Shown one piece after another: positions 1 through 40,948 of a stretch of 40,948 nucleotides of DNA (the first letter of the stretch is position 1; every line of letters begins with the position of its first letter). The notes below the pieces were generated by a model, which was not told where the DNA came from, searched no databases, and was given only the letters and a program-made list of their open reading frames with translations. A program made the translations under genes and the position numbers. The DNA comes from a virus. The DNA lies in IMG/VR virus record IMGVR_UViG_3300030107_002094, positions 1-40,948 of that record. One strand, given 5' to 3'.

Positions 1-1236
1 TCCTTCTTTAGCTACATCTACTGCTCTTGGAAGAACTGGAGCATGACCACCATATACTGATGTGGTAGTTGTTGCTCCTACAACAAGTCCTGTATTTGAA
101 GTTACTTCATCTATTTTTATATTAGAAAAATAAGTAGTTCCTGTCCCATTGTTATTAGCTCTAAAATATATTACTTGAGAAGTAACTCCAGAAAAATAAT
201 ATACAGGACTTCCACCTACTGTACTTACTAAGTCTTTTCCATTAAAATAAATTGATTCAGCACCTAAATCGCCAGTAACATCACAAGTAAACTTATATAG
301 TTTTGTTGCTGTTAAACTTCCTTGTGTATATTTAGCTCCCCTGTTGTTTCCAGTTTGTACTAATTTTAAAGCTCCATCTTCAATGTTTCTGCTTGTAACT
401 GTGCTATATGTATCCCAACCAGAAAGAGTAATTACATCTGTTCCATTTGCAGTAGAATCAAATGGGTCTTCATAAATAGATGTTACTGTCTCTGTATTAT
501 CTTCGTCTTGTACTCCTAGTCCACTTACATTATCTAATGCCCACCAACTAACTAAGCTTGTTTTTTCTACAGTTTTTAGTTGGCTATAGGATTTGTTCAT
601 AACGGAATTGACTTCTTCGAGGGATAAGGCTCTTGACCACATTGCTACATTTGCAAGTTGCCCATGAAAATCTTGAGCATTTGTAATACTTCCGCTATTA
701 AAATAAGCACTTATTAAAACATCTCTATCTGATTTATTTAAAGTAGAATCAGCTCCCCCTGTAGTTGTTGTACCTTCTGCTATACCATTTCTATACGCAG
801 TCATTGTAGAACCATCATGCGTAAAAGCATAGTGATTCCATACATTGGCAGATTCAGAGGTAGTATTTGCAACTAATTTTTGACCTTGACTTGCACTATT
901 ATATTGAACAAATTTTGTAACACCACTTTCAAAAATTACTCTCCACTCTCTTTTAGATGATGTCCCTTCGTCATATTTATTTATAATACCATAAATCCCG
1001 CCACTGACACTATAAAATTTTGCCCAAAAAGAAACAGTATAATTATCAAATGATAAATTATCACTATCTGGTATTTGTACATATTCTGTACCATCAAACT
1101 CTGTTGAACCTTCACAAGGAAACTTGAGGGTGTCTGACTTACTTGACTTGAAGTCGAGGTATAGTTTAAGGTTGTCCTTAACGTAGGTTAAGAGGGATGC
1201 TCCCCCCTTAGCTAGACTTGCTCCTAATCCAAGCAT
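1..1236 (-). CDS. LamG-domain receptor-binding/tail protein (C-terminus cut by window edge)
   Basis: The minus-strand frame is open from an ATG at 1236 to the left edge (412 codons, no stop). Residues about 38-200 read as a Laminin-G/concanavalin-type domain, with the hallmarks NYTVSFWAKF, WNHYAFTHDGSTMTAYRNG and FHGQLANVAMWSRALSLEEV. A second beta-rich segment follows (about 255-390, containing LSGWDTYSTVTSRN), which looks like another carbohydrate-binding-type module. Such modules occur in phage fibres and receptor-binding proteins and bind glycans on the host surface. The ATG follows the stop of the 108-aa gene directly (TAA, one base, ATG), so translation is probably coupled. It is the last visible late gene. 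The LamG call rests on motif reading; host-receptor binding is inferred. Confidence 0.8.
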   Translation of the reverse strand, partial: MLGLGASLAKGGASLLTYVKDNLKLYLDFKSSKSDTLKFPCEGSTEFDGTEYVQIPDSDNLSFDNYTVSFWAKFYSVSGGIYGIINKYDEGTSSKREWRVIFESGVTKFVQYNSASQGQKLVANTTSESANVWNHYAFTHDGSTMTAYRNGIAEGTTTTGGADSTLNKSDRDVLISAYFNSGSITNAQDFHGQLANVAMWSRALSLEEVNSVMNKSYSQLKTVEKTSLVSWWALDNVSGLGVQDEDNTETVTSIYEDPFDSTANGTDVITLSGWDTYSTVTSRNIEDGALKLVQTGNNRGAKYTQGSLTATKLYKFTCDVTGDLGAESIYFNGKDLVSTVGGSPVYYFSGVTSQVIYFRANNNGTGTTYFSNIKIDEVTSNTGLVVGATTTTSVYGGHAPVLPRAVDVAKEG

Positions 1237-1237
1237 T

Positions 1238-1564
1238 TTAGCCTAAATAGCAAATACAAAGACCAGTCGCTAGCGTAACAGCAGACCAATTACCAAAAAC
1301 TGTAACACCTTGAGGAAATGTATCAGAATTTGTAACTGAATTTCCATGCGTGCTAGTTCCGGTTCCGGTTATTGCTGCGCTTGATTGGGTCATTGTGGTA
1401 AACGTACAGTCTTCTAGCATAGTAATTGCTACAACTTTATTAGTTCCCATGCTAGCAACTGATTCTCCATCATCTAGCACGGCTGAACCTACTTGTCCAA
1501 GACCGACGTTATTGGCTTCTACTACAGAATATTTCTGTGTATTTGGTACATCATAGTTAGCCAT
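1238..1564 (-). CDS. Small putative virion protein (108 aa)
   Basis: A 108-residue Ser/Thr/Gly/Val-rich protein with no charged clusters and no membrane segment except a short hydrophobic C-terminus (TLATGLCICYLG). It begins MANYDVPNTQKYSVVEANNV and contains alternating hydrophobic stretches suggesting beta structure. A clear Shine-Dalgarno (GGAGAA about 6 bases before the ATG) supports the start. It lies between the giant ejection-type protein and the LamG protein, so a decoration or fibre-associated virion protein is plausible. I recognise no named family. The function is inferred from position only. Confidence 0.75.
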   Translation of the reverse strand: MANYDVPNTQKYSVVEANNVGLGQVGSAVLDDGESVASMGTNKVVAITMLEDCTFTTMTQSSAAITGTGTSTHGNSVTNSDTFPQGVTVFGNWSAVTLATGLCICYLG

Positions 1565-1686
1565 ATATTCTCCTTTTTTGTTTGTGTATCTTACCGCCCA
1601 AGAATAAGTGACATGGATACATCATTAGATTGCATTTGTAATTTAGTAAAAATGTTATAATAATATCGCATTAAAAATAAAAAAAG
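1565..1686. other. Intergenic spacer in late block
   Basis: This is the longest gap (122 bases) within the tail/ejection part of the late block. It holds the Shine-Dalgarno of the 108-aa gene and an AT-rich stretch containing TATTAT and TATAAC on the minus strand. These could be a -10 element, but I see no convincing -35. A promoter or RNA-processing site feeding the two fibre-type genes is possible but not shown. Confidence 0.3.
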
Positions 1687-4600
1687 TTATTGTGCTAGCT
1701 CAAAAGCATCTTGATATGGAACATTTTCGGGGGTTACATTGTCAGGAGCTGAGTTCATTAGCCTATTTAAAATCTCTTTTTCAAAATCTTCTGTGTTATT
1801 TAAAACCCAACCTTCTGCTTTTGGCATATTTTGCTTTAAAATTGACATAGCCTCATGTTTATTTGCATGATACCTATTTGGATTTGTCATTAACCTATGT
1901 ATTTCCTGTAAATCTTCATCGCTCATATTTGGTAATACTTTATTTCTTAATTCAGCTAATCCCTTTTGAATATTGTTTAACATTTCTTTAGACTCTTCAG
2001 TTTCACCCGTCAATAACCCTCTTGTAATTAATATATTTTCAAACCTAGCTAACTTGTCAAACATATTTACATATTTTCCTATTTCATAATACTTGTTAAG
2101 CAAGGTTGCTTTAGCGATGTTATTTACAAAACTTCTACCGCCTTCAAACATATCTCTCTTTGCTTGTGCATCCATTTCTGGCGAATTCCAGTTTTCATGT
2201 CTAACATATTTTTCCATATACGCTTTAAATGCTTTTCCTGTGTATTCATGTAGGTATTGCAATTCTCTAGGGGACATTTCCATAGTGTAGCCATCTCCGT
2301 ATGATATTTTTCCACCTAAATATTGCATATTGTGTCCTTTTTCTGGGAATGCTTTTAAATATTCTCTTTCTACTAAATATTTATCATCGCCTGATTTGTC
2401 TTCCGTATATCGAATGTTAACCATATTTAACATATTTGAATTTTTTGGAACTGGGTTTCCAAATAAATCATAAACCAATCTACTAGGGTCAATGTCTTTA
2501 GATTCTGAAAAAGCCCAAAATGGAGACAATTCTTTTTTTGAAGCATCTGACAATTTATCAAAGGCATCTTTTTGCTCTCCACTGTTTTTAAATTTATGTC
2601 CCCTAGGATACCTTTTTAATTGCCCATCTCTTATTGATTTTAATTGCTTCATAAAAGTTGGAGGTAACTCTCCAGCAGTCTTCTTTGCAAAAAACTCAGG
2701 CAAAGACATTCTTCCATTTATCACATCTGCTATTAAATCAGCTTGTAAAAATATAGGATTATTATTTACCCAATTACCAATAACTTGAGTTGCTTTTTCA
2801 AGTGCTGTTTTATTTGATTTTGTTTTATTATCATGGTAATTAGATGCAGCAGTTAAATAGATGCTAATGGGTTCACCAAGAGTAGAAAAAGACCAATAGT
2901 TATTACCCATTTTTATTGAATTAGGAGGTCTCCCCAAGACTCTATTAATATCCCTTTCTTCTGACGAAAGGTCAGCGCCACCCCCAATAATTGCCTCATC
3001 TCCATTTTGCCTTTTTAAAGACATTGCAGCACCAAAAATAATTGTAGATAATGCTGTGCCTAAGGTTCCCCTTGCTAAAGTTTCTGCCAATAAATCTGAA
3101 TTTTTTTCTCTTGTACCAGCTCCTTTTGATAAAGGCATTTTATATAAATTACCCCTGTGCATTCTTAATCCTTCCCAAAAATTATGAGTTGTAAAAACTA
3201 AAGGACTAAATTCAAAAGCTTTAGAAAATACATTTTTATATGTTAGCACAAATGGCACTTGCCAGTTAAAAAAAGCTGAACCAGCTGACATTTGGTCAGT
3301 TCTAATTGCATTTAATTTTTTACCAGCTTTACTTCTAAATGGTGCTTGAAAAACCATTTCTGCTCCATATGCTTTTGCTTCAGCTAATAATCTTTGAGAT
3401 ATTTGAGCATCTTCTTTTATTTCAAGAGACCTTTCTAAAACATTTTCTTTTGTAAGATTTTTATTTCCTATTTCTTTTCTTAATTCTTTAACAGCTTGTC
3501 TTATTACTAAAGTCTCAAATCTAGTTACTGTCCAAGGTAATCTATACAAAGCATCTAAAGCTCCTTGAGCATTTTGAGGCGCTCTAATTACCTTACCAAC
3601 TTTTCCGGGTATAAAACGAGAATATGCTTCATTTATTAAAAGTGGATTGTCTCTAAGAAAATCAGGGTTTTCTTTCATTATTTCTATAGCGCTTTTAATA
3701 GCTCCATTTTCCCCAAAAAAAGCCTCATGATAAACTTCTGTTTTATTTATCAGTTCATATTTACTATAATCAAACTTAGATAAGCCACTTTGCTCTCTTT
3801 TTGGGTCTAAAATATTACTCCATCCTAATTTAAGTCCTGATTTATTTGTTAAAATTTCCATAGCAGAATGCTGTGCGTTTCCAATTACTGACTTATAAAG
3901 TGACGTCATGCTTAGTAACTTAGAATTTCTTAATCCTTCAGCAACCATCCAAAAAGCGCTTGTAATGGCGCCCGGATTTTCTTTTCTAATTTCTGCAAGC
4001 TTAGTCATGCTTTCTACTAACTTTCTAAATTCACCACCTTTTTCACTTGGTATATTTGCTAAAATCTCAAATGCTTTTTGATTAACTTCCGGCTCTAAAC
4101 CTGTAGCTCTTAAAGCCCTTCCAGCTTCTGACCTAAACTGCATAAAAACTTCTAATGTTTTATTAAAAAATTCATTAAAAACAGGGTCTTGCATACGCTT
4201 TGGGTTTGAAAAAGCAAGCTCTACCATTGTTTTTGTTAAATCTGCTGTAGCTACGACATGCTCCGACCAATTTAAAGTATCACCTTTATCATTTAATATT
4301 CGACTGAAAATATCTGTTAAAACATCTTTTTTTCTAGAATTGCGACGTATTTCTTTTTCTGTTCTTCTATTTCTTATTTTTTCTACTTTATCGTACCCAA
4401 AATTGTCAATTATTTCTTTTAAGACTCTTACTTCATTTGCTTGATTATACTTAGGAAACATAGAATAAAGACTTACAGGACCGGCATATTGTAACTCATC
4501 TGGCGTTTTTCTTACAGGCTTTGGAGTGCCATCAGATTGCTTTGGTGTCATTAAAATTTGGTCTGATATTTGTTGAGCATTTTCTAGTTCAACAACTTTT

Positions 4601-7600
4601 TTTATATCGTCAAAATGTTTAGCAACATATTTTCTTATCTGTGGGTCTTTTAAATTTAAATCAGTTAAGTAATTAAGAAACTTTGACTTAGTTACTCTTG
4701 TGCCGTCAGTCATGCGTTTCCATAATTCTTTTACGTTTTCAATGATTTCCCTATCTAACATCTCATTCTTTTTTCCAGATGTTTTTTTAGGATTTAAAGA
4801 ACCAACAGATGTTCTTCTTGCTAGTTTTTTAGCTGTATCCTGTGCTAGCTCAAGCGCAGTCATTTTGCTTCGCAACTCTCTTTTTGAGGTTTCTATTCTT
4901 TTTGTTCTTGCATCTATGCTTAGTTTTAATTTGCTTATATAATCTAGAGATACGCCCGTTTCTTTTACTAATTCAACAGACTGCTCTGGAGTTAGATTCT
5001 TTATTGGCTTATTAAATAAGTCTAAAGATTTATTTTCAATTTTATCTATTTCAGCAATTTGTTTATCTCGACCAAATGCTAATTCATTTATTTCATGTTC
5101 AAATCGCTGTATTTTTATTCTATCACTATAAGCGTTTTCCGGGTTGGGTATATCAGGAGCGCCTAAATCTTCTTTTTCTATTTTTCTAGTCCAACCTTTA
5201 GTTGTTTTTTCTAAAGGCTGGTCTTTTAATTTTTCAAATATTTTAGCGACAACTTTTCCGTCTGGTCTTTCTAAATATCTTATAACAATATTTGTACCAA
5301 TATAATCTGATTGCTTTTCAGAAGCCCATCTATCAAATTCGTTTTTATTTTTAAATGTTTTTCCTCTTTCCCCTTTAATAGCCTGCTCTTTTTTCGCAGG
5401 CTTTAAATCTGAGGATTTCTGTACTTGTTCTAGTCCTGACTTTTTTGGTTTTCTTTTTGTTGATTTTTTTGAGGTTCCTTTTTTTATATTATGCTCAACT
5501 TTTAACTCATTGACAGTTTTTTGAGCTTCTTTAACATTTGGAGCGTATTGCGCTTCACCAATTTGATTTCCATCTTTATCAAGTTTTTGTATTGTGTGAA
5601 CTTTGCTTTTTCTATCATAAAATCTTTTTACAGATACAACTTTTCCTTCTAAACCTAATTCTCCAGATTCTACTCCCTGACTTGGAACATCTCTATCTAA
5701 ATTAACTTCTGTACTAGGCTTTTTATCTGCTTTTTCTTGGAGTATTTTTTCAACTTGCTTAGCATTATTCTGATAATCTTGTATTTCTTTTGGACTATTA
5801 CCATACTCACCAGCTTCAATTTTGTCAGCTATTTCTTGTGCTAGCTCATTTCTTTTTTTAGCTTCCTTTGCTTTTTTGGTTCTTCTTTTTGATAAATTTA
5901 TATCAACGCCGGTATTTTCTTTTTCTTTCTGAGTTCTAACTACTTTTGCTTCATTTTTTTCTATTTCTGTTTCAAGCTGTTCTGGTGTTTTTTTAAGGTC
6001 TTTTTTAGCTTTTTTTGTAAAACTATCAACAGATTCTTTTGTTTTTATGTTTAAAGGAAGCTCTAATTGTTCTGCTGTTTCAATAACAGCTTTGTCATAG
6101 GATTCTTTTACTTGCTCATTATATAAATCTAAACTTAATTGATTTGGGTCTTTTGACTTTTCAGCAAGATTTTTTTGAAAATTACTTTCAATTTTTTCAG
6201 CAACTTGTTCTTTTGTTATTGAATTAAGTTTTTTAGGAAATTCTCTTCCAACTCCATGTATAAGTCTCATTGACAAAATCATTCCTGCGCTATGAGCGTA
6301 AGTTTTAGGGTCTGACAGTCTTTCTAATAATGGTATGTCTGAATCAGCTTGTGCTTCTCCAGAAATAGCAAATCCACCCACTTCACCTAAAAATTCTCCG
6401 ACAGTCCCACCATATTTACCAAGACTTGAAAATGTTTTTCCAAATATTCCAGCTCCTACACCTCCGCTAAATCCCGTTATTGCACCAACTCTAAATGATT
6501 TAAAAACAGCAGATGAATCAAAATCGCTAACTCCAGCATTATTTAGTTGATTAAAAAATTCATTTGCGCCAGAATGTCCACCTACTCCCATTGACATACT
6601 TGCTGATTTATTTAAATACCCCACTACTGACTTTTGAGCTATTTCCATAGCCTTTTCTGGAGCAACTCCGGTTGCTGCAATCCTACCTGCTGACCTTGTA
6701 ACTAATGGCTGAACTAATTTTGCACCCAACCTTGATAAACCCGAAAAAGTAACCGCATCTACAGGCATTAAAAATGCTAGCACATCTGATGCTAGTCCAT
6801 AAGCAAAATTTGGGTTAGCATCCAACATAGCCATTTCTGTTTGAATATCTGATGTAACGCCAAACATTTTTCCAGTTAAACTTTTTTCCATAGCCAATGG
6901 AAGAACCATTGATAATTGATTCTCTTCATAGAATTTTTTTCTATCTAAAAGGCTTTTTTCTGGAGGAGGAAAAGCTGAAACTTCAGACATATCTTCTACA
7001 ACAGGAGATGTTTGTTCCATGTTAAATGTATCAATGGGTCCTTGAAAATTTACACCTTTAACTTCTTTTCCTATACTAGCAAATGTTGTAGCGGGTTGAG
7101 CAGTTACAGTTCGAGCCGATTCCTGAAGCCAATCTGGAACAATTTTATTATTTTCATTTTGAGGCGTGTAGTTAACATTAATAGCATTAGGGTTTCCAGC
7201 AGATTCAGCCATTAAAACTTGTTTTGCAATTTTTGGATTATCAAAAGATTTGTTAATAGCATCAATTTCAAAAGGCTGTAATCCAATACCAATTAAATCT
7301 TCATCAGTAATATTTTCAAATTGCTTATGGTTTCCTTTATTAAAAGCAACCCAATTATTCATTCCTAAAGGACTTTTAGAAATTTCCCCTGCTAATTGTA
7401 TTTGCTCTAAAGTGCTTAAATCATTTACAGTTTTTCCAAACATAGCCATAGAGTCTGGATTCCATTGCTTTTCATTTATTTGAAATAATCCATAATCCGT
7501 ACTATGAATTAACTGCTCTGATTCATAGTTCTCATCAGCAACTTTTCTAACCATAGGCTCAACTTCATTAGGGTTTTTTAATGCGTGGTCAAGCATTTGA

Positions 7601-9220: not shown

Positions 9221-10207
9221 CTATGCGTTATATTTACTTCTACTAAATCCACCACCAAGAAACTTTAATATTGCACCTAATGGCGCTGTTACTGGAGCTG
9301 TTGGTGGAGCCATTTTTGCTGTTGCTAGCAAAGCTGAACCTGCTGAATCCGCAGCTGTTGCAGGAGTAAGACCTTTTGTACCTAAGTCTTTTAGTGAAGA
9401 ACCAACTCCTAAAGCTGCGCCGGCTGTACCTAAAGTTTCTTTGCTAGACTCTAAAATTTTACCTGCTGTGCTAGTAGCTCCAGTAGCTGCCCCAGTAGCT
9501 GTGCTAGCAGAGCCAGTAGCTGAAGATGGTGTAACAACCACCTCTTCCAACATTTGCGGATTATTTCTTGTTAAAAATTCAAGATTTTCCGGCTTATTAT
9601 ATCCAATTATGGGACTTTCTGGTAATTCCCCATACTTACTAATGTGGTCTATTTTTATTTCTTGCAAGGTCTTAGGAGCTTTTACGCCTTCCATTATTTC
9701 TTTTGTGCTATACCTCGGCTTTGCTTGATTGCCAATCATATTTTCAATTTCAGCATCAGCATCAAACTCTGGAACATTTACATCTTCAGGTATGAATTCT
9801 TCTTCCGAAATTCCAGTATAGGGAGCAATTTTATTTTTTAATGCTTGCTCTGTTAAATGCCTATCTTTAGCAAAACCAAATATTTCTTTAAAATTAATTC
9901 CCGGGACATTTTTATTCATAATCATTTCTGTTCCCTGCCTCATATACTCAGCGGAGGCTTTATCATTAAGCAAAAAATCTTTAAATGATAATTCAGGGTT
10001 TGCTCTTTTAGCCAGTAAATAATCTTTTCTTGTCTTAATTCCTTTTAGACCAGTTTTTCCAGCACTTCTAAGGTTTTCTGCGTTTGCCCTGTCTTCTGCT
10101 TGAGCTTGCCTCATCCTTTCACGAAGTAATTGTATTAAATTTCTTGTTTCTGCCGATATTTGCTTAGTGCTTCCGGGCATATTTAATAATTCATTTACTG
10201 TTGCCAT
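9221..10207 (-). CDS. Putative virion protein with Ala/Thr/Gly-rich hydrophobic C-terminus (328 aa)
   Basis: A 328-residue protein. Residues 1-215 are charged and helical. Residues about 225-320 are rich in Ala/Thr/Gly/Ser with glycine-zipper-like spacing (ATGSASTATGAATGATSTAG, then GAALGVGSSLKDLG) and end with basic SRSKYNA. Such tails suggest membrane insertion, as in ejected inner-core proteins. It lies between the fibre gene and the ejection cluster. I recognise no named family, so the role is inferred from composition and context. The Shine-Dalgarno is AGGAGT before the ATG at 10207. Confidence 0.7.
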   Translation of the reverse strand: MATVNELLNMPGSTKQISAETRNLIQLLRERMRQAQAEDRANAENLRSAGKTGLKGIKTRKDYLLAKRANPELSFKDFLLNDKASAEYMRQGTEMIMNKNVPGINFKEIFGFAKDRHLTEQALKNKIAPYTGISEEEFIPEDVNVPEFDADAEIENMIGNQAKPRYSTKEIMEGVKAPKTLQEIKIDHISKYGELPESPIIGYNKPENLEFLTRNNPQMLEEVVVTPSSATGSASTATGAATGATSTAGKILESSKETLGTAGAALGVGSSLKDLGTKGLTPATAADSAGSALLATAKMAPPTAPVTAPLGAILKFLGGGFSRSKYNA

Positions 10208-10220: not shown

Positions 10221-11663
10221 TTATGAAAAATCATTTCCACTTTGTATTCGCTGAGCAGATGCTTTAACAGTTGCTTCTGCTCCGCTATTATTTGTCCATC
10301 TGATACCTTGAGTACTTCCGGGTCCTAAAGTAATTTGTCCAATACTACTATAACCTCCACTACCATCTTGAAATTTTTGTACAAGATAACCAATATCTTC
10401 TGGGTCATGTCTTTGTCCTCCATTTTTAAAACAATAACCAACATTTAATCCATCTTGACTATTTACTTTAAAATTTACAGTTACTAACCAAACTGTTCCA
10501 TCAGTATCATCTTGATTGGAGCTACTTACTATTTCTAAATAACCACTGTTAGCAACAGTTCCTTCAGCTTTATAAGTAAAATTTCTCATTAATTTAGAAG
10601 TTTCTATTGCTTGAAAATCTACATGGACACCAGTTGCACTGCCATTTGTATTAGTTCCTATATCTGTGACTATAGCATTTCCGACTGGTCTATATAAAGA
10701 TGAAGTTTCAAATACTCCATCTATTATTGTTCTTAAGGGAGAACTTCCATCAGGGGTTATATCATCTGTTCCTCCACCTATTTGAAGATTGCCTGTAGCT
10801 CTTAAAAGCATGCCTGTTACAACGCCACTACCAACTGAAGGCTGTGTATTTCCTGCCCTTAATCTTATTTGATTTGAGCTAGCTATATCTACTCCGTAAT
10901 CAGCGCTTTTTGTAGCTACATTATTACATTCTATAAGTATTTTATTAAAACAAGCAGAATTACTTGCATTTGTTCCAGAATCTGTCTTTAAATGTACTCC
11001 CGTAAAAGATGAATTATGACTATTTGTATTTTGAACCAATACTGTATTAGCAGCTGAACCAGTTGCTTGAGTTGTTATATCCGCTGAACCAGTTACAGTT
11101 ACATTTCCTGCATGAGTTCCAGCATATCCCCTTGAAGTGTCTACAGTAACATTGTTAGCGTCAATATCTAAATCTCCTGTAGGAGTAATATCTATATCAT
11201 TCGCAGATGTTAAGGTAATTTTATTAGCTCCAGTTGTGGTAAGATTTATAGGATTTGCTCCACTAACTGCAAAAGCACCATCAGCAGTATTTATTGATGT
11301 CTGGTCTAAGGTAGTCGCCCCATCTACATCTAAAGTTCCTACATTTGTAATATTATTCCCTCCAAATGATTGATTTCCCGTAAAATCTCTTGAGCCATTT
11401 TTTTTAATAAAATCTTCAGTTTGATTATTAACCAACCCAACTGTTAAAGTTTTTACGGCTTCTTTTGAAGAAGTTTTTTCTTTATCAAATAAACTATCTG
11501 TAGATGCCATCTTTTTCCACTCATTACCTTCTTTAACGTACTGGTTAACACTCCTGCCAACCCGTCTATAAATAACATCACCATTTTGACCTTCGTATTT
11601 GTTTGGAACTCCATTTAATACAGTTGGTTTGCTTCTTTGTATATTTTTTCTAGAATTACTCAT
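10221..11663 (-). CDS. Tail fibre/spike-like beta-repeat protein (480 aa)
   Basis: A 480-residue protein. The N-terminal 75 residues look like a virion-attachment segment. Residues about 95-220 carry short repeated beta units rich in Asn/Thr/Asp/Gly (NNITNVGTLDVDGATTLDQ, LTSANDIDITPTGDLDIDA, then NNVTVDTSRG). These are typical of trimeric phage fibres and beta-helix stalks. The C-terminal part (about 330-480) is globular and beta-rich. It overlaps the nozzle gene by 4 bases (ATGA-type), so the fibre is co-translated with the tail. It probably mediates host recognition; the receptor is unknown. The fibre class is inferred from the repeat pattern. Confidence 0.75.
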   Translation of the reverse strand: MSNSRKNIQRSKPTVLNGVPNKYEGQNGDVIYRRVGRSVNQYVKEGNEWKKMASTDSLFDKEKTSSKEAVKTLTVGLVNNQTEDFIKKNGSRDFTGNQSFGGNNITNVGTLDVDGATTLDQTSINTADGAFAVSGANPINLTTTGANKITLTSANDIDITPTGDLDIDANNVTVDTSRGYAGTHAGNVTVTGSADITTQATGSAANTVLVQNTNSHNSSFTGVHLKTDSGTNASNSACFNKILIECNNVATKSADYGVDIASSNQIRLRAGNTQPSVGSGVVTGMLLRATGNLQIGGGTDDITPDGSSPLRTIIDGVFETSSLYRPVGNAIVTDIGTNTNGSATGVHVDFQAIETSKLMRNFTYKAEGTVANSGYLEIVSSSNQDDTDGTVWLVTVNFKVNSQDGLNVGYCFKNGGQRHDPEDIGYLVQKFQDGSGGYSSIGQITLGPGSTQGIRWTNNSGAEATVKASAQRIQSGNDFS

Positions 11664-12889
11664 CGTGGACTTTTTACTCTATATACTATAGAAATATCAT
11701 TTATTTGAAAGTCATACTTTTTTGTCGTGCTAGCATCAACAAAAAGAGACAACTGCATTGAATAAATGTTGTTTTTTATTGCAGTAGAATTTGGCTTCAA
11801 AATACAAACAGAATACTGATTAGCCGTATCGGGAGGAGATATTTCAGCAATAGAACCATCTAAAACTCCTTTTTCTACTATATCAAAGTTTTGAGCAGTT
11901 GAAGTGTCACCATTAACATAATACTGAGCCTGTATATTTGTAGCGTCTGAATTGCTACTTGTTTTATAAGTAATATATACTTTATAAAGTCTTTTTCTAA
12001 TGCTGGGATTTCCAAAATCAATATCTTTTGTTTTTAAAGAAAAAACGGTTGTGTTATTACTTGAGTCTGGGACAGGTAGCCATTCAAATAATTTTATATA
12101 CCCACCAGACTCTGTTGGTATATATAATTTATCTTTATAAGTAATCGGAGCAAGCCTATTTGCTGCTTGCAAACTGTCTGGTGCATATATCCAAGCATCT
12201 TGTCTAAAGTCATAAACATAAGTATTATTATCAGATGCTCCATTTGAATTATATCCTACTTTAGGAATAACAATTAATTGTCTATTTATAGGGTCAAACC
12301 CCAATGCACTTTTAGCAGTATTACTAGATTTAATAGCATCCCAATGCGTTGAAGAAAGCCTAAATATGCCGTTCTTCTCTACTAAATTTCTAATTTCTTT
12401 TCCATTATATAAATAAATTCCATTATGAGAAATCCAAACTACCCCACTATCTATTTTGAGAACAGCATAACTACTGTGCGTACCTAAATAGTTGTGTGTA
12501 GATTCTAAATATTCTAATTCATTTGAAACATTTATAATATTAAGTGTTTTATTTTTAAACTCTAAAAGCATATCTCCAAATGAAGATAGAGCCTTAATTT
12601 CTTCTCCGTCATTTACAGCTGATTCAATCTTTGACTTTTCTCTAAATAAATCAAATCTATTTGGGTCAGATTTAAATATAGCATCAGGATATGTAACACT
12701 ATCTCCATCTATGTCAGTTACCTTAACATTTCCGATATATGCCCTCCTATTTAAAACTACAGCTGTTTTCCACATAACAGAGCGAAGAGGCTGATTGAAC
12801 TCATCATAACCCCTTTGAAATGATGGTGGCGAATCAAATCTGTACCCTAAATGCTGTTTCCCCGGATTCATATATGCGTAATTAGCCAT
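11660..12889 (-). CDS. Tail nozzle-like protein, C-terminal propeller part (409 aa)
   Basis: A 409-residue beta-rich protein with propeller-like strand repeats: NRRAYIGNVKVTDIDG, DMLLEFKNKTLNIINVS, SGVVWISHNGIYLYNGKEI and YVYDFRQDAWIYA. This pattern is common in nozzle/tail proteins of marine short-tailed phages, where it forms part of the tail tube tip. In relatives as I know them, these segments usually lie in one chain with an N-terminal part like that of the gene at 13260-14672. Here the chain appears split, with a nucleotidyltransferase gene between the parts. The start overlaps the nucleotidyltransferase stop by one base (TAATG). The split is inferred, not proven. Confidence 0.75.
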   Translation of the reverse strand: MANYAYMNPGKQHLGYRFDSPPSFQRGYDEFNQPLRSVMWKTAVVLNRRAYIGNVKVTDIDGDSVTYPDAIFKSDPNRFDLFREKSKIESAVNDGEEIKALSSFGDMLLEFKNKTLNIINVSNELEYLESTHNYLGTHSSYAVLKIDSGVVWISHNGIYLYNGKEIRNLVEKNGIFRLSSTHWDAIKSSNTAKSALGFDPINRQLIVIPKVGYNSNGASDNNTYVYDFRQDAWIYAPDSLQAANRLAPITYKDKLYIPTESGGYIKLFEWLPVPDSSNNTTVFSLKTKDIDFGNPSIRKRLYKVYITYKTSSNSDATNIQAQYYVNGDTSTAQNFDIVEKGVLDGSIAEISPPDTANQYSVCILKPNSTAIKNNIYSMQLSLFVDASTTKKYDFQINDISIVYRVKSPR

Positions 12890-27742: not shown

Positions 27743-28629
27743 TGAGCAACAGATTCGATAGAATTTTAGAGCCTAAAATTATCAACGACAAATTCGAGGG
27801 TAAGCACGCTATTGTTCACATGACAGACATGCGAACTTTAATTGAGTGCATATATGAGAATGAATTGTTTACCGACGAGAGAAGTAAAAAATGGCAATAT
27901 GGTAAACATATTGTCGGTAGAGAAAACCTAAAGCGCGCTCTGACCATAGGCAGAACATCTGACTCGATGATGAGATTGTACCAAAAACTTCGTGCTAGCA
28001 TAGATACTAGAATCGACGTTTCTAAGTTCGTAGGCAAGGGGTTATCATGTAAACGAAAGCGTGTTCGCAGAGATGATGGAGACGATTTAAGTATGTCGAG
28101 ATTAATGGGTGGCTCCGACCAATATTGGGAGACTACTATTCGGAAGTCTAAGCGTGCGAATGTGAGAATTGGTATGAATATGGCAATATCTCACGAACAT
28201 AGAGAGCGTGATTTTGCAAGACTTGGAGCCACGCTAGCATGCATTTGTGATGTTATTACAAAGCTGGGATATGGTGTGGAAGTTATTGCCTATAACTTTG
28301 TTAGGTATAACGGAAAACATAAATGGAAACATTGGGGTATGTCAGTACCAATTAAGATGCCTAATGAGCCTATGGATATACACAGACTTATGACCGCCGG
28401 CTTACCCGGACTATTCAGAGATTATATGTTCGGCTTAATGGAGAAAAAATACAAGTTCGGCTATGGTCTTGGTCGCCAATGTGAAACTACAGATACATAT
28501 AAGCGCGAATTAAATCTAATCCATGCGGTAGAGCAACGATTCTGTAAAACCGATGACGACACTATCGACGGACTAGAAAAAGCACTTCAAACAATAGCAA
28601 ATCCACCGAAATGGATGAGTATTAATTAA
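27742..28629 (+). CDS. CobT/VWA-like partner protein (295 aa)
   Basis: A 295-residue protein translated from a TAATG overlap with the AAA+ gene. Residues about 30-120 are basic and helical, including SCKRKRVRRDDGDD. Residues about 140-280 resemble a von Willebrand A/CobT-type fold: strand RIGMNMAIS, a helix DFARLGATLACICDVITKLG, strand VEVIAYNF, and later GLPGLFRDYMFGLM. The MIDAS D-x-S-x-S is degenerate (N-M-A-I-S), so metal binding is doubtful. MoxR/VWA pairs act as chaperone-like remodelling machines. This is the inferred partner of the ATPase. The stop codon is inside a repeated 17-bp hairpin. Confidence 0.7.
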   Translation: MSNRFDRILEPKIINDKFEGKHAIVHMTDMRTLIECIYENELFTDERSKKWQYGKHIVGRENLKRALTIGRTSDSMMRLYQKLRASIDTRIDVSKFVGKGLSCKRKRVRRDDGDDLSMSRLMGGSDQYWETTIRKSKRANVRIGMNMAISHEHRERDFARLGATLACICDVITKLGYGVEVIAYNFVRYNGKHKWKHWGMSVPIKMPNEPMDIHRLMTAGLPGLFRDYMFGLMEKKYKFGYGLGRQCETTDTYKRELNLIHAVEQRFCKTDDDTIDGLEKALQTIANPPKWMSIN

Positions 28630-28688: not shown

Positions 28689-29177
28689 ATGAGTGTCAAA
28701 AAAACAGAAATTGAAACAAAATTTGGACTGCCAAAACAAGCGAAAGATAAAATCTTGAAAGATGCGCTTAGTAAGTGTGATGCAATCACAGATAAGCTAG
28801 CGTGTGAGGAAATAATGCGCTTTTGCCTAAACACACTACTAATGTCGGTCAGTAAAGTTTTAAGTGGTGTATCTAAAGAGGATTTCAGCCAAGAGCATCG
28901 AGTCCATTTAATCTCAACAATAGTTGCTGATGTTGAAACATTAATTATGCCGGTGGTATCTAGGCTACTAGATAAAGACCCGGAAAAAGGAACATTTGAC
29001 GGCACTAGGCTAGCAAGAGAAACAAACACTATACGAGAAAATGAAACATTTCATGTAGAACACAAATCTACAGATGCCGGGCAAGAGATGCGAGTTAGCA
29101 TAGGAACAGAAATGCCTAGAGAAGTAGCTGAATTCATGGAAAATTTTGACGAAAACACTATCGTCGGAAATTCTTAA
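28689..29177 (+). CDS. Hypothetical helical protein (162 aa)
   Basis: A 162-residue protein with amphipathic helices through about residue 110 (KQAKDKILKDALSKCDAIT, HRVHLISTIVADVETLI), then an acidic C-terminal part (AGQEMRVSIGTEMPREVAEF). No membrane segment, Cys cluster or known motif. An RBS (GGAGAC) follows the recurrent CCAACA leader. It lies between the ATPase/VWA pair and a PC4-like gene; involvement with either is only inferred from proximity. Confidence 0.7.
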   Translation: MSVKKTEIETKFGLPKQAKDKILKDALSKCDAITDKLACEEIMRFCLNTLLMSVSKVLSGVSKEDFSQEHRVHLISTIVADVETLIMPVVSRLLDKDPEKGTFDGTRLARETNTIRENETFHVEHKSTDAGQEMRVSIGTEMPREVAEFMENFDENTIVGNS

Positions 29178-29519: not shown

Positions 29520-30263
29520 ATGAATGTAAAACAAAAACATAGTGAAATTTATATGACGACAGATTATTCGATGTTTTCTAGCATGAAACACAATCGAAAT
29601 GTAAGTGAGGCGCATATTCATAGGCTTATGAAAAGCATGAGCGAAAAACAATACCCTGTACCTATAGTCGTCAATGAAAAGAATGAAATAGCTGATGGGC
29701 AAAACAGATTCGAGGCAATTAAAGCGCTTAATTTGCCTGTATATTATATGGTAATTCCCGGACTAACTATTGACGATGTTAAAAGACTTAACCGAGATAA
29801 TAAGACATGGAACGAAATAGATTATGCTGAAAGTAACGCGTCTCAAGGTCGTTCTAGCTACAAACAATATTTGCTCTTCAGAAAGGAGTTCGGATTTGGA
29901 CACATGATAACGCTCTCACTACTTGCAGACCACACAAGCGACCAAAAATTTGTAAATAAATTATTTTACGACGGAGCTTTGGAGGTAAAAGATTATGAGC
30001 TAGCACGAACTAATGCCAACAAACTTAGAGCGTGTAGGGAGTTTTATGATGGGTGGAAGATGCGCTCGTTTGTATATGCTATGCTGAAATTATTCAAGTC
30101 GCCGGAATACGACCATAAAAGATTTCTGAAAAAGCTAGCACTAAAACCTAGAGAATATATCCGAAACTTAAGGCTAATAAGAAATATTGTAGATGCTAAT
30201 AGAGCCATCGAAGATATTTATAACTATAATACCACAAGCAATAAGAAAGTGAGGCTTTATTAG
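29520..30263 (+). CDS. ParB-like nuclease/partition-domain protein (247 aa)
   Basis: Residues about 15-100 match the ParB/sulfiredoxin-like N-terminal domain: NVSEAHIHRLMKSM, YPVPIVVNEKNEIADGQNRF (DGQNRFEA at 59-66, the DG-x-x-R motif that binds nucleotide in this superfamily), then VYYMVIPGLTIDDVKRLNRD. The C-terminal 140 residues are basic and helical, possibly DNA-binding. Phage members act in transcription control, DNA partition or as nucleases; no partition ATPase is present here, so regulation or a CTP/ATP-dependent enzyme role is more likely. RBS GGAGAG. It ends TAGTG, overlapping the next GTG start. Confidence 0.75.
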   Translation: MNVKQKHSEIYMTTDYSMFSSMKHNRNVSEAHIHRLMKSMSEKQYPVPIVVNEKNEIADGQNRFEAIKALNLPVYYMVIPGLTIDDVKRLNRDNKTWNEIDYAESNASQGRSSYKQYLLFRKEFGFGHMITLSLLADHTSDQKFVNKLFYDGALEVKDYELARTNANKLRACREFYDGWKMRSFVYAMLKLFKSPEYDHKRFLKKLALKPREYIRNLRLIRNIVDANRAIEDIYNYNTTSNKKVRLY

Positions 30264-31645: not shown

Positions 31646-31657
31646 GGGGTGCTAGCA

Positions 31658-31858
31658 ATGATAAAACCAATAGACGAATATATAAGATTAATAGCTAGGT
31701 ATATGGCTAGCGACGAATCGGGGGAAGACTACAGATATAAAATGATTGTGTGGATGCTTACGAAAATATATAAAGAAGAACCGCCGGCAGACGCTACTAT
31801 GCGTAATATTCTAGCAGATTGGGATTTAGTTATTCAACATGCAGAGGAGGAAGAATGA
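31658..31858 (+). CDS. Small helical protein (66 aa)
   Basis: I place the start at ATG 31658, where AGGGGG stands 8 bases upstream; a GTG at 31649 in frame would lie on the Shine-Dalgarno itself. The product is helical (KPIDEYIRLIARYMASDESG, YKMIVWMLTKIYKEEP) and acidic at the end. It ends with an ATGA overlap into the next gene. Unknown function. Confidence 0.6.
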   Translation: MIKPIDEYIRLIARYMASDESGEDYRYKMIVWMLTKIYKEEPPADATMRNILADWDLVIQHAEEEE

Positions 31859-32023: not shown

Positions 32024-32278
32024 ATGAGCAAACCAAAATTAGATTATGGCTATGGCTATAATGAATTAAATTCAATACGAATTGTATGGTGCATAGATGA
32101 TGTTAGGCAACACTTAGCGGAATTGTCAGATAAATACAGACACGAAACACTTACAGATGATGAGTGCATGGAAATACTTGATTATGTAGACAGAAAGCAC
32201 GATGCTAGCATTGGAATATCGTGGGATAATATAGAGTGGGCAATTCAAGACCATATTGATGCGAGGAATAAGGATTAA
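32024..32278 (+). CDS. Small protein (84 aa)
   Basis: Start at ATG 32024 preceded by GAGGAAAA; an in-frame GTG at 32009 would overlap the previous gene. The protein has a Tyr/Gly-rich beginning (PKLDYGYGYNELNS) and helical remainder (DDVRQHLAELSDKYRHETLT, MEILDYVDRKHDASIGISW). Unknown function. Confidence 0.6.
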   Translation: MSKPKLDYGYGYNELNSIRIVWCIDDVRQHLAELSDKYRHETLTDDECMEILDYVDRKHDASIGISWDNIEWAIQDHIDARNKD

Positions 32279-32861: not shown

Positions 32862-33221
32862 TTAATTATCTAATACTTTTTTTATATCGTTACGAGTAGG
32901 ATAAATTTTTTCATCCGCGTCTGCTTGAGATAGAATAAATTTATTCTGTTCTAGTTTTTCTTTTTCCCACTCTGATTCACTATCCATTACGCCTAAAGGC
33001 GAATATTTATATGAAACATTCGCGGGTACATCATTCCATCCCCGCAGTTCTAGCGCAAGCTTCTCTATTTGTTTGAACGCGCTTCCCTTTCCTACCCTGC
33101 CGTTTCGTGCTAGCTTACAGGTCTGGATAATCCCGTCAGTTATCTGGTAAACTTTGCTAGCGCTATTTTTCAGGTGCGCGCCTAAATGGTCGCGTTGTTC
33201 TTTATAATGTTTTTTTAACAT
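32862..33221 (-). CDS. Hypothetical basic protein (119 aa)
   Basis: A 119-residue protein with a basic N-terminal half (KKHYKEQRDHLGAHLKNSAS, CKLARNGRVGKGSAFKQIEK) and charged C-terminal half. No motif recognised. It is the distal gene of the right minus-strand block before the terminator. RBS AAAGGGG is before the ATG, which lies inside the end of the preceding open frame. Confidence 0.6.
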   Translation of the reverse strand: MLKKHYKEQRDHLGAHLKNSASKVYQITDGIIQTCKLARNGRVGKGSAFKQIEKLALELRGWNDVPANVSYKYSPLGVMDSESEWEKEKLEQNKFILSQADADEKIYPTRNDIKKVLDN

Positions 33222-34157: not shown

Positions 34158-35171
34158 CTACACTCCCAATTTTTGAAAAACATCTGATAACTTTGTGCTA
34201 GAACTATCTTTCGCAGCTGCGTTACCAGCTTCGCTGGTACTTGTGCTAGCTTGAACAGCAGGAGCTGTGGTAACTGGCTGTTTAACTGGCTGTCGTTTTC
34301 TAGCTTTTTTATCTCTTTCTATTAACTCTAATTCTAAAAGCGCCATCTTTTTTGACTGATACCTACCATCACTACATGATTCACATGGCTCGTTAGTTAA
34401 ATTTTTAACTTGTTGAGGTTTTTCATGCTTGCATTCAGTACACATGTAATCTATTTTTGTAGCTACTTTTAAGTTTTCAACAATATTATCTCCAAACATG
34501 CTATTAAAATCATCGTTAAACCTTTCTTGGTGCAACCAAGAACTAGCCATTGGAATGTATTGTGGCTCTGTACCTTTCTTTTTCCAATATCTAATGTAAT
34601 TAAGTAGACCTTCTAAAACAGACTCTTTTTTAACACCGCTTTTCCTAATGGATATATATTTATCCATAGCACGCTTACGATTGTCTCTTCTAGGATATAA
34701 TTCCCAAAATTCATTTAAAAATTCACTTTCTAAATCTTTTTTCACATTAATTCTTTTAGCTTTAACTACAACTTCATCTTCTACTTCTTTATTGGATGGC
34801 TTGGCTATAGCCTTGCCATTGCCTTGCCATCTTGTTTGTGCGCCTTTTTTACCATTAGCACTCATTCTCTCTCTATAAGCAATCATATTTCCGCGTTCTG
34901 TTTCCAATCTGTTATTGTACAATCTTCCATCTCTCTCAATAAAACAGTTCATTACTATTTGCCAATCACTATCAAAATCGGGATGATTACCACATAATAT
35001 TCTTAGCTTTAGCAAGTCGGTTGGTAAAGAGCCTTCAATCCATTCAAATGCTAACAGAGTTATATACATTCCTCTCTGAGCCATTGTCATGGTAGTTACA
35101 TTTATATCTGATAAAAAATCGCTAGCATAAAATTGAAATGCCGGCGCCTTTCCTAATTTTTTATTTTCCAT
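34158..35171 (-). CDS. DUF1376-type replication initiation protein (337 aa)
   Basis: Residues about 8-105 match DUF1376: PAFQFYASDFLSDINVTTMT, MAQRGMYITLLAFEWIEGSL, a winged-helix-like domain in phage replication proteins. Residues about 148-220 match the second half of phage initiators: FLNEFWELYPRRDNRKRAMD, then YIPMASSWLHQERFNDD. A four-Cys zinc ribbon follows (CTEC...CESC, about 242-262), then a low-complexity Ala/Ser/Thr tail. It is expected to bind origin repeats and recruit a helicase loader. The 11-bp iterons lie in its codons 115-126, in the linker between the two domains. Start ATG at 35171. Confidence 0.75.
   Translation of the reverse strand: MENKKLGKAPAFQFYASDFLSDINVTTMTMAQRGMYITLLAFEWIEGSLPTDLLKLRILCGNHPDFDSDWQIVMNCFIERDGRLYNNRLETERGNMIAYRERMSANGKKGAQTRWQGNGKAIAKPSNKEVEDEVVVKAKRINVKKDLESEFLNEFWELYPRRDNRKRAMDKYISIRKSGVKKESVLEGLLNYIRYWKKKGTEPQYIPMASSWLHQERFNDDFNSMFGDNIVENLKVATKIDYMCTECKHEKPQQVKNLTNEPCESCSDGRYQSKKMALLELELIERDKKARKRQPVKQPVTTAPAVQASTSTSEAGNAAAKDSSSTKLSDVFQKLGV
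34796..34828. repeat. Three tandem 11-bp iterons inside the DUF1376-type gene
   Basis: On the minus strand: GGCAAGGCAAT, GGCAAGGCTAT, AGCCAAGCCAT, contiguous. The middle unit continues to give GGCAAGGCTATAGC, an exact 14-base match with the array at 24316-24329. Since 11 is not a multiple of 3, the repeat does not arise from a repeated peptide. Confidence 0.85.
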
Positions 35172-35349: not shown

Positions 35350-35743
35350 TTTCTTGAATTCTACGCTCAATATCAGCCATCCTTTCTTGTTCTATTTCTC
35401 TTATTTCCTCTTCCCTGTAATTTGTTTTATCCTTGTCTTCAATTAGTTCTAAAAAGTCATCAAAAGTGAGTATAGCATATATTGTACCTCTATCTTCCTT
35501 TACTACTTGCACATCAACATTATCCGTGTTTGGCTTTAGCCATTTTGCTATGTTTTTCCTTACCTTGCATTGCACTCTCCATTCTTTATCTTTCCCATCT
35601 AGTACGGCATCAACCTCTTCGGTATGACCTAATGAAAGACCATTGCTAGCATAAGCCCTTTCAGCCCCAATCTGGAGTTCTCTGGCTCTGTTAACAACTT
35701 CACGCTCAAATCGATTTCCTTTTTGCTTACTTCTACTAGGCAT
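35342..35743 (-). CDS. Holliday-junction-resolvase-like nuclease (133 aa)
   Basis: KGNRFEREVVNRARELQ (residues 8-24), then GLSLGHTEEVDAVLDGKDKE and WRVQCKVRKN (about 54-63), giving Glu, Asp and the Q-x-K catalytic pattern of the archaeal-Hjc/RecB-like PD-(D/E)XK fold. Next, TIYAILTFDDFLELIED and a charged helix. Such nucleases resolve branched recombination or replication intermediates before packaging. It lies near the initiator and the annealing protein. RBS AGGAGAT precedes the ATG. Confidence 0.75.
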   Translation of the reverse strand: MPSRSKQKGNRFEREVVNRARELQIGAERAYASNGLSLGHTEEVDAVLDGKDKEWRVQCKVRKNIAKWLKPNTDNVDVQVVKEDRGTIYAILTFDDFLELIEDKDKTNYREEEIREIEQERMADIERRIQEND

Positions 35744-38031: not shown

Positions 38032-38100
38032 TTTAAACTCCTTTAATGTTGTTTATGTATGTTTAGCTACGTTTAAATTACATAGTAAAAAAGAGCATTG

Positions 38101-39183
38101 CTAGCTTTTTTTATATTTTCTACGTTTGTACTTTAAGTATTCAGCACCTTCATATGGGTTAAAAAATAAAGTAATCAATCTATTGTCGTCATCGTCATAT
38201 TGGGGGTCAATAATAGTTACCGGTGCATTAAAAATGTTTTTATCATCTAACCCTAGTTTGTCAGCGTAACTATCCATATTTTTAAACGAAGCTACCTGTA
38301 TAGCGTGACTAATAAGTCCGCTAGAAGGGTCTTTTAACACCTGATACCCTGAAACATGTATATGTCCGGCAGTTAAAATATGGTCGCGCCACCCTGTTTG
38401 GACTGCCTTGCTTATTGCATGCGCCGTATTCCACATTGAATTACCTTTAAATTGATGTCTGGCATTTATGCGAATAGATTTTCCATTTGGAAATTGAAGA
38501 TTCATTCTAGCACCATGCTGTTGGTATACTGATGGTTTATCCCGCATGATAAACTCAAGGGGGTCGCCATCACCACTCCATACATCGTGATTACCGGCTA
38601 TTAGGTATAGCCAAGGCAATTTATTTAAAAAATGTTCAGTTAGCGCCCATGATTCTTTTGCAGTTGTTGATTGCTGACCATACAAAGCTTGCAATCTGCC
38701 CACCCAATTATTCTGAACATCCCCTAAATTTCCGGCAAACATACCTTCAGTCTCATTAATTAAATCACATAAAGAATATATTTCTGATATATCTGTGCCA
38801 TCATCATCTACATGTGGGTCGCCAAAGTGACATATCCCCACAGGACCGTGAACATTAATTTTTATATTTATAAGTTTTCTATTTTTATATGCCTCGAATT
38901 TTTTTGTATATCTCTTTTTTCTATATTCGATAATATCATCAATGTCCATTTCTTCAACAGGCAAATCTTCTACTATAAATTGATTGTGTTCGATTATTCT
39001 AGGGACAATAGTTTTTTTACCGCACTTGGGGCAATAATATCTTTGTCTCTTGCGATTATTCTTCCAATAATTCCACCCATCTTTGCGAATATCATTATTT
39101 GTGCATTTGGGACACCCTACGATATTACCATCGGGGTCTTTGCAGTCTCGAGACTTTGTTTTTCCGTTAGGTTGTTTTGGCAA
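38101..39183 (-). CDS. Metallophosphoesterase with N-terminal zinc ribbon (360 aa)
   Basis: Residues 20-60 form a zinc ribbon, CPKC...YYCPKC (Cys 24, 27, 51, 54), with DIRKDGWNYWKNNRKRQRYY between, a layout known from IS-type transposases. Residues about 115-345 form a calcineurin-like phosphoesterase: Asp122/His124 in GDPHVDDDG, GD in GNLGDVQNN (154-155), GNHD (197-200), His243 and GHIH (273-276). All metal ligands appear present. Phage members cleave phosphodiesters of nucleic acids or nucleotides; the substrate here is unknown. It lies next to the endolysin gene. Confidence 0.85.
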   Translation of the reverse strand: MPKQPNGKTKSRDCKDPDGNIVGCPKCTNNDIRKDGWNYWKNNRKRQRYYCPKCGKKTIVPRIIEHNQFIVEDLPVEEMDIDDIIEYRKKRYTKKFEAYKNRKLINIKINVHGPVGICHFGDPHVDDDGTDISEIYSLCDLINETEGMFAGNLGDVQNNWVGRLQALYGQQSTTAKESWALTEHFLNKLPWLYLIAGNHDVWSGDGDPLEFIMRDKPSVYQQHGARMNLQFPNGKSIRINARHQFKGNSMWNTAHAISKAVQTGWRDHILTAGHIHVSGYQVLKDPSSGLISHAIQVASFKNMDSYADKLGLDDKNIFNAPVTIIDPQYDDDDNRLITLFFNPYEGAEYLKYKRRKYKKS

Positions 39184-39185
39184 AA

Positions 39186-39584
39186 TTAATCAATAAGTTC
39201 AAAATGAACTAAGTCGTCAAAGCTATTATCTTTAGTTGTCCTTTTTCCTTGATATGTGCTAGAAGCATTCCAGTCCCCTCCCCAGCGCAGCTTTACGCCC
39301 ATGCTAGCAGCTACACCCAGAACAAATCCACCTAAATAGTGAAAGTCATCTCTAGCATCCCAATCTATTGGATAGGGTGCAATGTCAACAGCTTTTCCCT
39401 GCACATGTTTGCCAAATTTTGTTTTGCTTTTTCCTTGAGCAACAAGTTCGTTTTGCCTAGCTTGACTCCTCAGACCCTCGATTACTGTTATATCAAAGTA
39501 TTTAACAACTTCATTTAAAACATTCACAAGGCGAATGTCTACACCGCGAAGTCTATCTCTAGACCTTTTTCCAAATCTAGGCAT
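39186..39584 (-). CDS. M15-family peptidase endolysin (132 aa)
   Basis: VIEGLRSQARQNELVAQGKS, KTKFGKHVQGKAVDIAPYPI (His60, Asp67) and KLRWGGDW..., ending FDDLVHFELID (His127). These are the S-x-x-x-H-x-x-G-x-A-x-D and H-F zinc-binding motifs of VanY/L-Ala-D-Glu-type peptidases that cut peptidoglycan cross-links. Size fits a single-domain endolysin. No signal peptide, so it needs a holin, consistent with the membrane genes just upstream. Confidence 0.9.
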   Translation of the reverse strand: MPRFGKRSRDRLRGVDIRLVNVLNEVVKYFDITVIEGLRSQARQNELVAQGKSKTKFGKHVQGKAVDIAPYPIDWDARDDFHYLGGFVLGVAASMGVKLRWGGDWNASSTYQGKRTTKDNSFDDLVHFELID

Positions 39585-39587
39585 TTA

Positions 39588-40357: not shown

Positions 40358-40664
40358 TTATTCTACTTACACTGCCTTTTACTTCCATCATTACATCACT
40401 AAGGTCATTAACTTCACGAACCATTTCCTCGTGCCTTCTATCTCTAGTAGAGTCGCTAGCGTTCCATCTGTCTAATAATTTTAAAATAATAGCTTCAATA
40501 TTATCAATTTTTTGAGATTGCCCTTTATTTTCGACTTTTAAATCCTCTAATGCTTCTGCTTGTTCATCTGCTCTTTGGCTTTGTTTAAAATATCCATAAA
40601 AAAATGCTAGCACGACCAAACCCATTGCTCCATATTCTGCGTAAACGTCAATAAATGATTCCAT
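40344..40664 (-). CDS. Membrane-anchored coiled-coil protein, holin-like (106 aa)
   Basis: An N-terminal helix (YGAMGLVVLAFFYGYFKQSQ), then a long coil (EQAEALEDLKVENKGQSQKI, REVNDLSDVMMEVKGSVS). The layout is close to BhlA/UviB-type holins of phages. Upstream GGAG lies 8 bases before the ATG. It opens a run of four overlapping membrane genes that ends at the endolysin. Confidence 0.6.
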   Translation of the reverse strand: MESFIDVYAEYGAMGLVVLAFFYGYFKQSQRADEQAEALEDLKVENKGQSQKIDNIEAIILKLLDRWNASDSTRDRRHEEMVREVNDLSDVMMEVKGSVSRINGKH

Positions 40665-40722
40665 TAAGACTCCAAGTAAATGTATTTAAATTCTATATTA
40701 TAAGATGTGCTAGAACACCAAG

Positions 40723-40821
40723 TCATTCTTCCTCCTCAGTTGCTTTACACTCATCGCAAACACCACGCAATGCTTGATGAATTGGTTTATCGCATTCAAT
40801 ACAATGGAAAGGCATTGGCAT
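40723..40821 (-). CDS. Tiny zinc-finger protein (32 aa)
   Basis: MPMPFHCIECDKPIHQALRG then VCDECKATEEEE. C-x2-C twice, with 14 residues between, gives one zinc ribbon. The ATG at 40821 shares a base with the upstream stop (TAATG). Its small size is offset by the strong motif and coupling. Confidence 0.55.
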   Translation of the reverse strand: MPMPFHCIECDKPIHQALRGVCDECKATEEEE

Positions 40822-40948
40822 TATTTTTTCCTCATTGTTAAATCAATATAAACCTTTAAATCAGATTTAATTTCTGCATTCCATTTTTTTAGTTTACCCA
40901 TCTCATCCATAATTATATCTAATCTATGTTGTAAATTTTCATGTTTTT
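40821..40948 (-). CDS. C-terminal part of a coiled-coil protein (cut by window edge)
   Basis: The visible C-terminal ~41 residues (ENLQHRLDIIMDEMGKLKKW, then NAEIKSDLKVYIDLTMRKK) are a charged amphipathic helix. The start lies beyond 40948. The frame does not continue the left-edge LamG gene if the ends are joined directly, so this is probably a separate gene. Confidence 0.55.
   Translation of the reverse strand, partial: KHENLQHRLDIIMDEMGKLKKWNAEIKSDLKVYIDLTMRKK

Follow-up and report, generated by a model that had tools for sequence, protein, structure and literature searches.

GCTAGC as a HIP-like palindrome in a family of marine phages that infect Marinimicrobia

The virus record IMGVR_UViG_3300030107_002094 of IMG/VR, analysed here over its whole length of 40,948 bases (the window), raises the question of why a phage genome should be replete with a single palindromic hexamer, GCTAGC, and of what might read it. 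A first reading of the letters alone (the original prediction) had counted about 39 copies and likened the word to a highly iterated palindrome (HIP) such as HIP1 of cyanobacteria, which might mirror a host modification or repair motif or serve as a phage-encoded signal. As described below, the excess is a DNA-level signal present in two reading frames, and it recurs in two clades of one phage family.

Abundance of GCTAGC in the window

An exact recount gives 40 copies, i.e. 977 per Mb, and the five positions first offered as examples (1269, 1451, 1694, 26762 and 26788) are all correct. Markov models of the symmetrised sequence expect 4.2 copies at order 0—in agreement with the earlier estimate of near 4—and 7.1, 9.5 and 18.1 copies at orders 1, 2 and 3, respectively. 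Synonymous codon shuffling yields 9.8 copies within genes (standard deviation 2.7, maximum 20 in 1000 shuffles) and 7.9 from a genome-wide pool (z = 11–13 against the shuffles). All of these nulls lie below 30 copies. An order-4 model gives 35, and was set aside as circular because it includes the enriched pentamers GCTAG and CTAGC, which belong to the signal itself. The excess of ‘about ten-fold’ initially claimed is therefore accurate relative to base composition and comes down to about four-fold against codon-aware nulls.

At orders 1 and 2, no other hexamer of the window is as over-represented as GCTAGC and CTAGCA. CTAG overall is just modestly raised (187 versus 144 expected), so that the excess is specific to the form flanked by G and C. 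The copies, 21 of which are framed as xxG-CTA-GCx, 17 as GCT-AGC and 2 of which were scored as intergenic, are listed here with the form of each in brackets; all are exact matches with no strand assigned (.).

1269..1274, strand., GCTAGC site (CGCTAGCG)
1451..1456, strand., GCTAGC site (TGCTAGCA)
1694..1699, strand., GCTAGC site (TGCTAGCT)
4844..4849, strand., GCTAGC site (TGCTAGCT)
5840..5845, strand., GCTAGC site (TGCTAGCT)
6776..6781, strand., GCTAGC site (TGCTAGCA)
9324..9329, strand., GCTAGC site (TGCTAGCA)
9503..9508, strand., GCTAGC site (TGCTAGCA)
10878..10883, strand., GCTAGC site (AGCTAGCT)
11729..11734, strand., GCTAGC site (TGCTAGCA)
16955..16960, strand., GCTAGC site (AGCTAGCA)
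17019..17024, strand., GCTAGC site (GGCTAGCT)
17627..17632, strand., GCTAGC site (CGCTAGCT)
18496..18501, strand., GCTAGC site (TGCTAGCT)
20362..20367, strand., GCTAGC site (CGCTAGCA)
21653..21658, strand., GCTAGC site (TGCTAGCA)
21710..21715, strand., GCTAGC site (TGCTAGCT)
22757..22762, strand., GCTAGC site (GGCTAGCT)
25874..25879, strand., GCTAGC site (GGCTAGCA), scored intergenic
26762..26767, strand., GCTAGC site (TGCTAGCG)
26788..26793, strand., GCTAGC site (TGCTAGCC)
27514..27519, strand., GCTAGC site (CGCTAGCC)
27994..27999, strand., GCTAGC site (TGCTAGCA)
28233..28238, strand., GCTAGC site (CGCTAGCA)
28796..28801, strand., GCTAGC site (AGCTAGCG)
29009..29014, strand., GCTAGC site (GGCTAGCA)
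29999..30004, strand., GCTAGC site (AGCTAGCA)
30134..30139, strand., GCTAGC site (AGCTAGCA)
31651..31656, strand., GCTAGC site (TGCTAGCA)
31706..31711, strand., GCTAGC site (GGCTAGCG)
32204..32209, strand., GCTAGC site (TGCTAGCA)
33109..33114, strand., GCTAGC site (TGCTAGCT)
33156..33161, strand., GCTAGC site (TGCTAGCG)
34245..34250, strand., GCTAGC site (TGCTAGCT)
35121..35126, strand., GCTAGC site (CGCTAGCA)
35645..35650, strand., GCTAGC site (TGCTAGCA)
38100..38105, strand., GCTAGC site (TGCTAGCT), scored intergenic, overlaps gene end
39303..39308, strand., GCTAGC site (TGCTAGCA)
40455..40460, strand., GCTAGC site (CGCTAGCG)
40606..40611, strand., GCTAGC site (TGCTAGCA)

The motif across related phages

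The terminase served as family marker for relatives, tree and host search; the window encodes it together with a portal protein and a major head protein.

21301..22968, strand -, terminase large subunit (phrog_38, E=6.5e-75)
18877..20883, strand -, portal protein (phrog_156, E=1.2e-72), present in 18 of the 18 genomes first compared

Terminase matches comprise 80 IMG/VR loci at 61–99% identity. In most of these loci no palindromic hexamer ranks above GCTAGC, and the same is true of 54 of the 57 ten-kb pieces cut from enriched genomes. When 57 relatives (638 kb) are pooled, it is the most over-represented hexamer of any kind (606 versus 122 expected), and its density across 19 enriched genomes is 762–1696 per Mb. 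On the terminase tree, the trait falls into two clades of the phage family that are set apart by unenriched lineages, and it requires at least six state changes, although the exact number of gains is uncertain given that several short contigs are weak state labels. Two IMG/VR pattern scans for clustered GCTAGC or TGCTAGCA provided an informal background of contigs chosen for their local clusters of GCTAGC, with those clusters masked in the counts; among the matches listed, a few were mildly high and no unrelated phage had a comparable genome-wide excess. One unrelated, GC-rich phage contig (L158) possibly carries another iterated palindrome, CTCGAG (48 versus 17.7 under codon shuffling). Within the family, ACGCGT is a second, more weakly over-represented palindrome in clade 1 (L011, L016, L046, L054 and others; 181 versus 62 in the pool, order 3), an excess absent in clade 2.

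Across 15 enriched genomes with 539 kb in total, GCT-AGC encodes Ala-Ser 271 times where 69.5 are expected, and xxG-CTA-GCx encodes X-Leu-Ala 236 times where 23.6 are expected, exceeding the prediction from codon choice four- to ten-fold. Neither codon preference nor a general liking for CTAG explains this, because GCT-AGC stands at 3.8x while GCT-AGT stands at 1.05x and ACT-AGT at about 0.2x. Non-enriched relatives give 0.85–0.87x in the same comparison. Codon-pair bias was rejected as well, since two frames are enriched and non-enriched relatives lie at about 0.9x.

The flanks sharpen the picture: CTAG with zero, one or two flanking G..C bases is found at 0.69x, 1.48x and 5.13x, respectively, and the next base outwards matters too, with T or C at about 10x, A at 3–7x and G at about 1x. 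Accordingly, TGCTAGCA and CGCTAGCA are near 10x and AGCTAGCT is at 3.3x, while forms with G before or C after the hexamer reach 0.4–2.3x, so that the preferred form is best described as YGCTAGCR. The second clade favours TGCTAGCA (84 versus 5.7 expected). Near-misses are enriched at outer positions (GCTAGA 1.96x, GCTAGG 1.47x, GCTAGT 1.35x), whereas changes at inner positions give 0.56–1.12x. The profile of flanks and outer bases looks like recognition by a protein. In clade 1, Leu CTA is heavily used in xxG-CTA-GA (GCTAGA about 6x), more than the palindrome explains; because GCTAGA is also raised in the CTA frame there, a codon-context component is possible in that frame.

The sites are scattered at random. 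Regular spacing was rejected, as inter-site gaps fit a Poisson process (Kolmogorov–Smirnov p=0.20; 211 gaps under 300 nt versus 201.6), and so was restriction to structural or early regions, structural and remaining regions both being enriched. At positions whose encoded residues are conserved, 61% of the sites of one enriched genome recur in another, whereas the other has a site in 10–14% of cases in which the first lacks one; other synonymous Ala-Ser codings are retained at 3–57%. Related sequences share sites by descent, which makes the 61% a measure of conservation and not of selection by itself.

Restriction and hosts

Set against phage restriction-site avoidance, GCTAGC has the opposite sign: GATC and many palindromes are nearly gone from the enriched genomes. 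GATC is the most strongly avoided word seen, with a sole copy in the window, at 25248, versus about 100–117 expected, and few or no copies in most of the family; GGCC is absent versus about 38–63 expected, and CCWGG, CAATTG, GATATC, TTCGAA, CTGCAG and GAGCTC are likewise missing. Every fully compared enriched genome has 0–1 copies of GATC versus 44–124 expected, from which it follows that hosts exert strong restriction pressure. Pooled relatives are also poor in GATATC, CCATGG, CCWGG, CTGCAG, GGWCC and others. Clear GCTAGC enrichment occurs only together with near-absent GATC, and some GATC-free family members are not enriched. The sets of avoided sites differ among relatives, as though each set recorded the restriction systems of its host.

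CTAG itself is entirely missing from four phages of the unenriched lineages between the clades, L055, L332, L085 and L086 (63, 31, 27 and 21 copies expected), and is depleted in the host genome G001 (66 versus 151). Both observations suggest CTAG restriction; the core is apparently read by enzymes in sister lineages and handled by enzymes in the host group.

Which hosts are these? A terminase alignment scan of about 85,000 GTDB genomes found close relatives only in two metagenome-assembled genomes (MAGs) of Marinimicrobia, and a phylum search agrees, placing close family terminases in Marinimicrobia MAGs. Two GCTAGC-rich relatives, G276 and G256, appear to be temperate. In G276, an integrase adjoins a tRNA-Arg 3′ half (G276:C1:23267-23311, L426) whose 45-nt core is found exactly in 9 of 245 Marinimicrobia genomes, with up to three mismatches in 53 and in none of 399 genomes of the phylum that holds a Magnetococcales MAG. 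G256 (L138), with an integrase of the same family, carries a tRNA-Met 3′ half (G256:C1:2892-2936) that is exact in four Marinimicrobia genomes, a count made without an outgroup control. Both 3′ halves are probable phage attachment (attP) sites, matching Marinimicrobia tRNA genes over 45 nt, and would provide attP-based host assignments for phages of Marinimicrobia (SAR406). No tRNA genes were found in the phages. In the Marinimicrobia genome G035, a complete tRNA-Met lies about 22.8 kb from a truncated 3′ copy (G035:C12:47611-70423; L460, L461), and the two probably bound an integrated element, which is not GCTAGC-rich. A terminase stretch at G022:C231:9999-10580 contains eight in-frame TGA codons and possibly stems from a phage in which TGA encodes an amino acid.

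The host chromosomes lack the excess. Among the 245 Marinimicrobia genomes, GCTAGC density reaches at most about 143 per Mb, compared with 977 in the window, and stretches of the host genomes that have a matching bacterial attachment (attB) site are at expectation (21 versus 18.8 and 21 versus 23.2). Hence the idea that the phage word mirrors a motif of the host genome fails, while the HIP-like reading holds. A role as host promoter operator was rejected, since host copies have no intergenic bias (6% intergenic versus 11.5% of sequence).

What might read the word

Among the genomes compared, no gene separates all enriched members from all non-enriched ones by its presence, which makes a factor of the host lineage the most economical reader. 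The nearest candidate is a fast-evolving gene family at 28689-29177, adjoining an ATPase/DUF7192 pair and present in every enriched genome whose completeness allows a judgement. It was rejected as diagnostic, as was gene presence or absence in general, because the non-enriched G252 has the family too and G258 probably has a divergent form of it. A confident AlphaFold2 model of its protein (pLDDT 81.6) had no fold match at E<=0.001 in PDB or BFVD, and an IMG/VR search with it found no relative. The protein encoded at 29207-29431 marginally matches the PC4 transcription coactivator family (24.4 bits versus a cut-off of 25).

The reading we tentatively prefer, at somewhat less than even confidence, is that YGCTAGCR is a HIP-like site kept by selection. 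The sites would be maintained because a protein reading CTAG with G/C flanks recognises them; this putative reader would be present in only some host lineages, and would most likely be a DNA-modifying enzyme that, through its mark or by binding, aids the survival of phage DNA under heavy restriction. Several observations weigh against this. The search for a methylase that the original prediction had called for found none in 35 phage accessory proteins scanned with Pfam, PHROGs and PADLOC, host methyltransferases not having been surveyed. Marinimicrobia as host of the window is inferred from its relatives. The word is enriched neither in host chromosomes, which ought to encounter that factor too, nor in 20 other terminase-bearing contigs of Marinimicrobia MAGs, so that any host factor would have to be selective for this family or confined to unsampled hosts. 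A bolder and more doubtful version holds that some Marinimicrobia lineages read CTAG or GCTAGC as a mark of acceptable DNA, that the family repeatedly loaded its genomes with the best substrate as a form of mimicry, and that sister phages under CTAG cutting purged it.

The main rival, which we consider possible though doubtful, is a repair ratchet without function, as Elhai proposed for HIPs: a host cytosine methylase would modify CTAG, and mismatch repair directed by methylated GC sites would push sequences one way, towards G-CTAG-C, in analogy to the drive of CGATCG to GCGATCGC in HIP1 (PMC4390886). The CTAG core with flanking GC has the same layout as HIPs, the density matches theirs and near-misses accumulate at outer, not inner, positions. 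A ratchet, however, predicts spread-out saturation instead of Poisson spacing, and should affect host chromosomes; moreover, its one-step synonymous source GCTAGT is not depleted (1.05x), and the sharp bias against an outer G is left unexplained. We regard as rather unlikely a site bound by a phage-encoded replication, packaging or DNA-condensing protein: although enrichment is confined to phages and the 28689-29177 family accompanies it, the exceptions described above and the missing fold match speak against that candidate, none of the other genes follows the trait, and the replication genes also occur in non-enriched members.

The remaining alternatives seem improbable. Many random sites on both strands would suit a Chi-like site or a decoy titrating a host DNA-binding protein, yet host copies are neither enriched nor biased towards promoters, and known Chi sites are not palindromes. 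Slightly less credible still is the view that the excess follows from codon usage, codon-pair bias, composition or the avoidance of other words. In its favour, the order-4 model comes close to the observed count, and xxG-CTA-G contexts are raised in clade 1 (2.7–6x with non-Ala followers), so that some codon-context effect may add to the excess; against it stand the circularity of that model, the gap between GCT-AGC and GCT-AGT, shuffles that never exceed 20 copies and the level of the non-enriched relatives. Least likely is a GCTAGC-rich host genome to which the phage adapted, as might be imagined from the chromosomal HIP1 of cyanobacteria (PMC4390886); the low peak among the 245 Marinimicrobia genomes and the attB-matching hosts at expectation largely refute it.

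By word type, density and distribution, GCTAGC is HIP-like, and the likeness originally drawn is borne out by a palindrome over-represented beyond composition and codon usage, in two frames and at random positions, whose density falls within the 500–2500 per Mb of cyanobacterial HIPs (PMC4390886). Like HIP1 and the exceptional HIPs (GGCGCC, rCCGGy and GCsGC), it is the top palindromic word at about 0.8–1.7 per kb, has a methylase-like core between G and C with near-misses at outer positions, and is gained and lost between relatives. It is not a strict HIP: HIPs belong to chromosomes and are tied to known methyltransferases, whereas GCTAGC is phage-borne and Marinimicrobia chromosomes are at expectation. 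A linked methyltransferase recognising the inner sequence may yet exist, the phage accessory proteins scanned having yielded none. The word also differs from that of HIP1 proper, GCGATCGC, GATC occurring once in the window, and the inferred hosts are Marinimicrobia rather than cyanobacteria. Chi sites and DNA uptake sequences, short scattered words that act through recognition of DNA as self, resemble GCTAGC in being short, over-represented and scattered, and differ from it in that GCTAGC is palindromic, phage-only and randomly placed. The literature searched contained no report of a phage-borne HIP and nothing relevant on GCTAGC over-representation; the main text of a marine methylome paper (PMC9516812) mentions neither GCTAGC nor CTAG, Marinimicrobia or SAR406.

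Were the mimicry version true, a single phage family would both shun and favour the same four-base core, depending on the host. More broadly, HIP1 of cyanobacteria still lacks an agreed role, its chromosomal setting blurring the line between selection and repair bias. The phage family described here may be seen, by analogy, as a virus counterpart of that repeat, and its small genomes, its enriched and non-enriched sisters and the normal chromosomes of its hosts make the selection and repair models testable.

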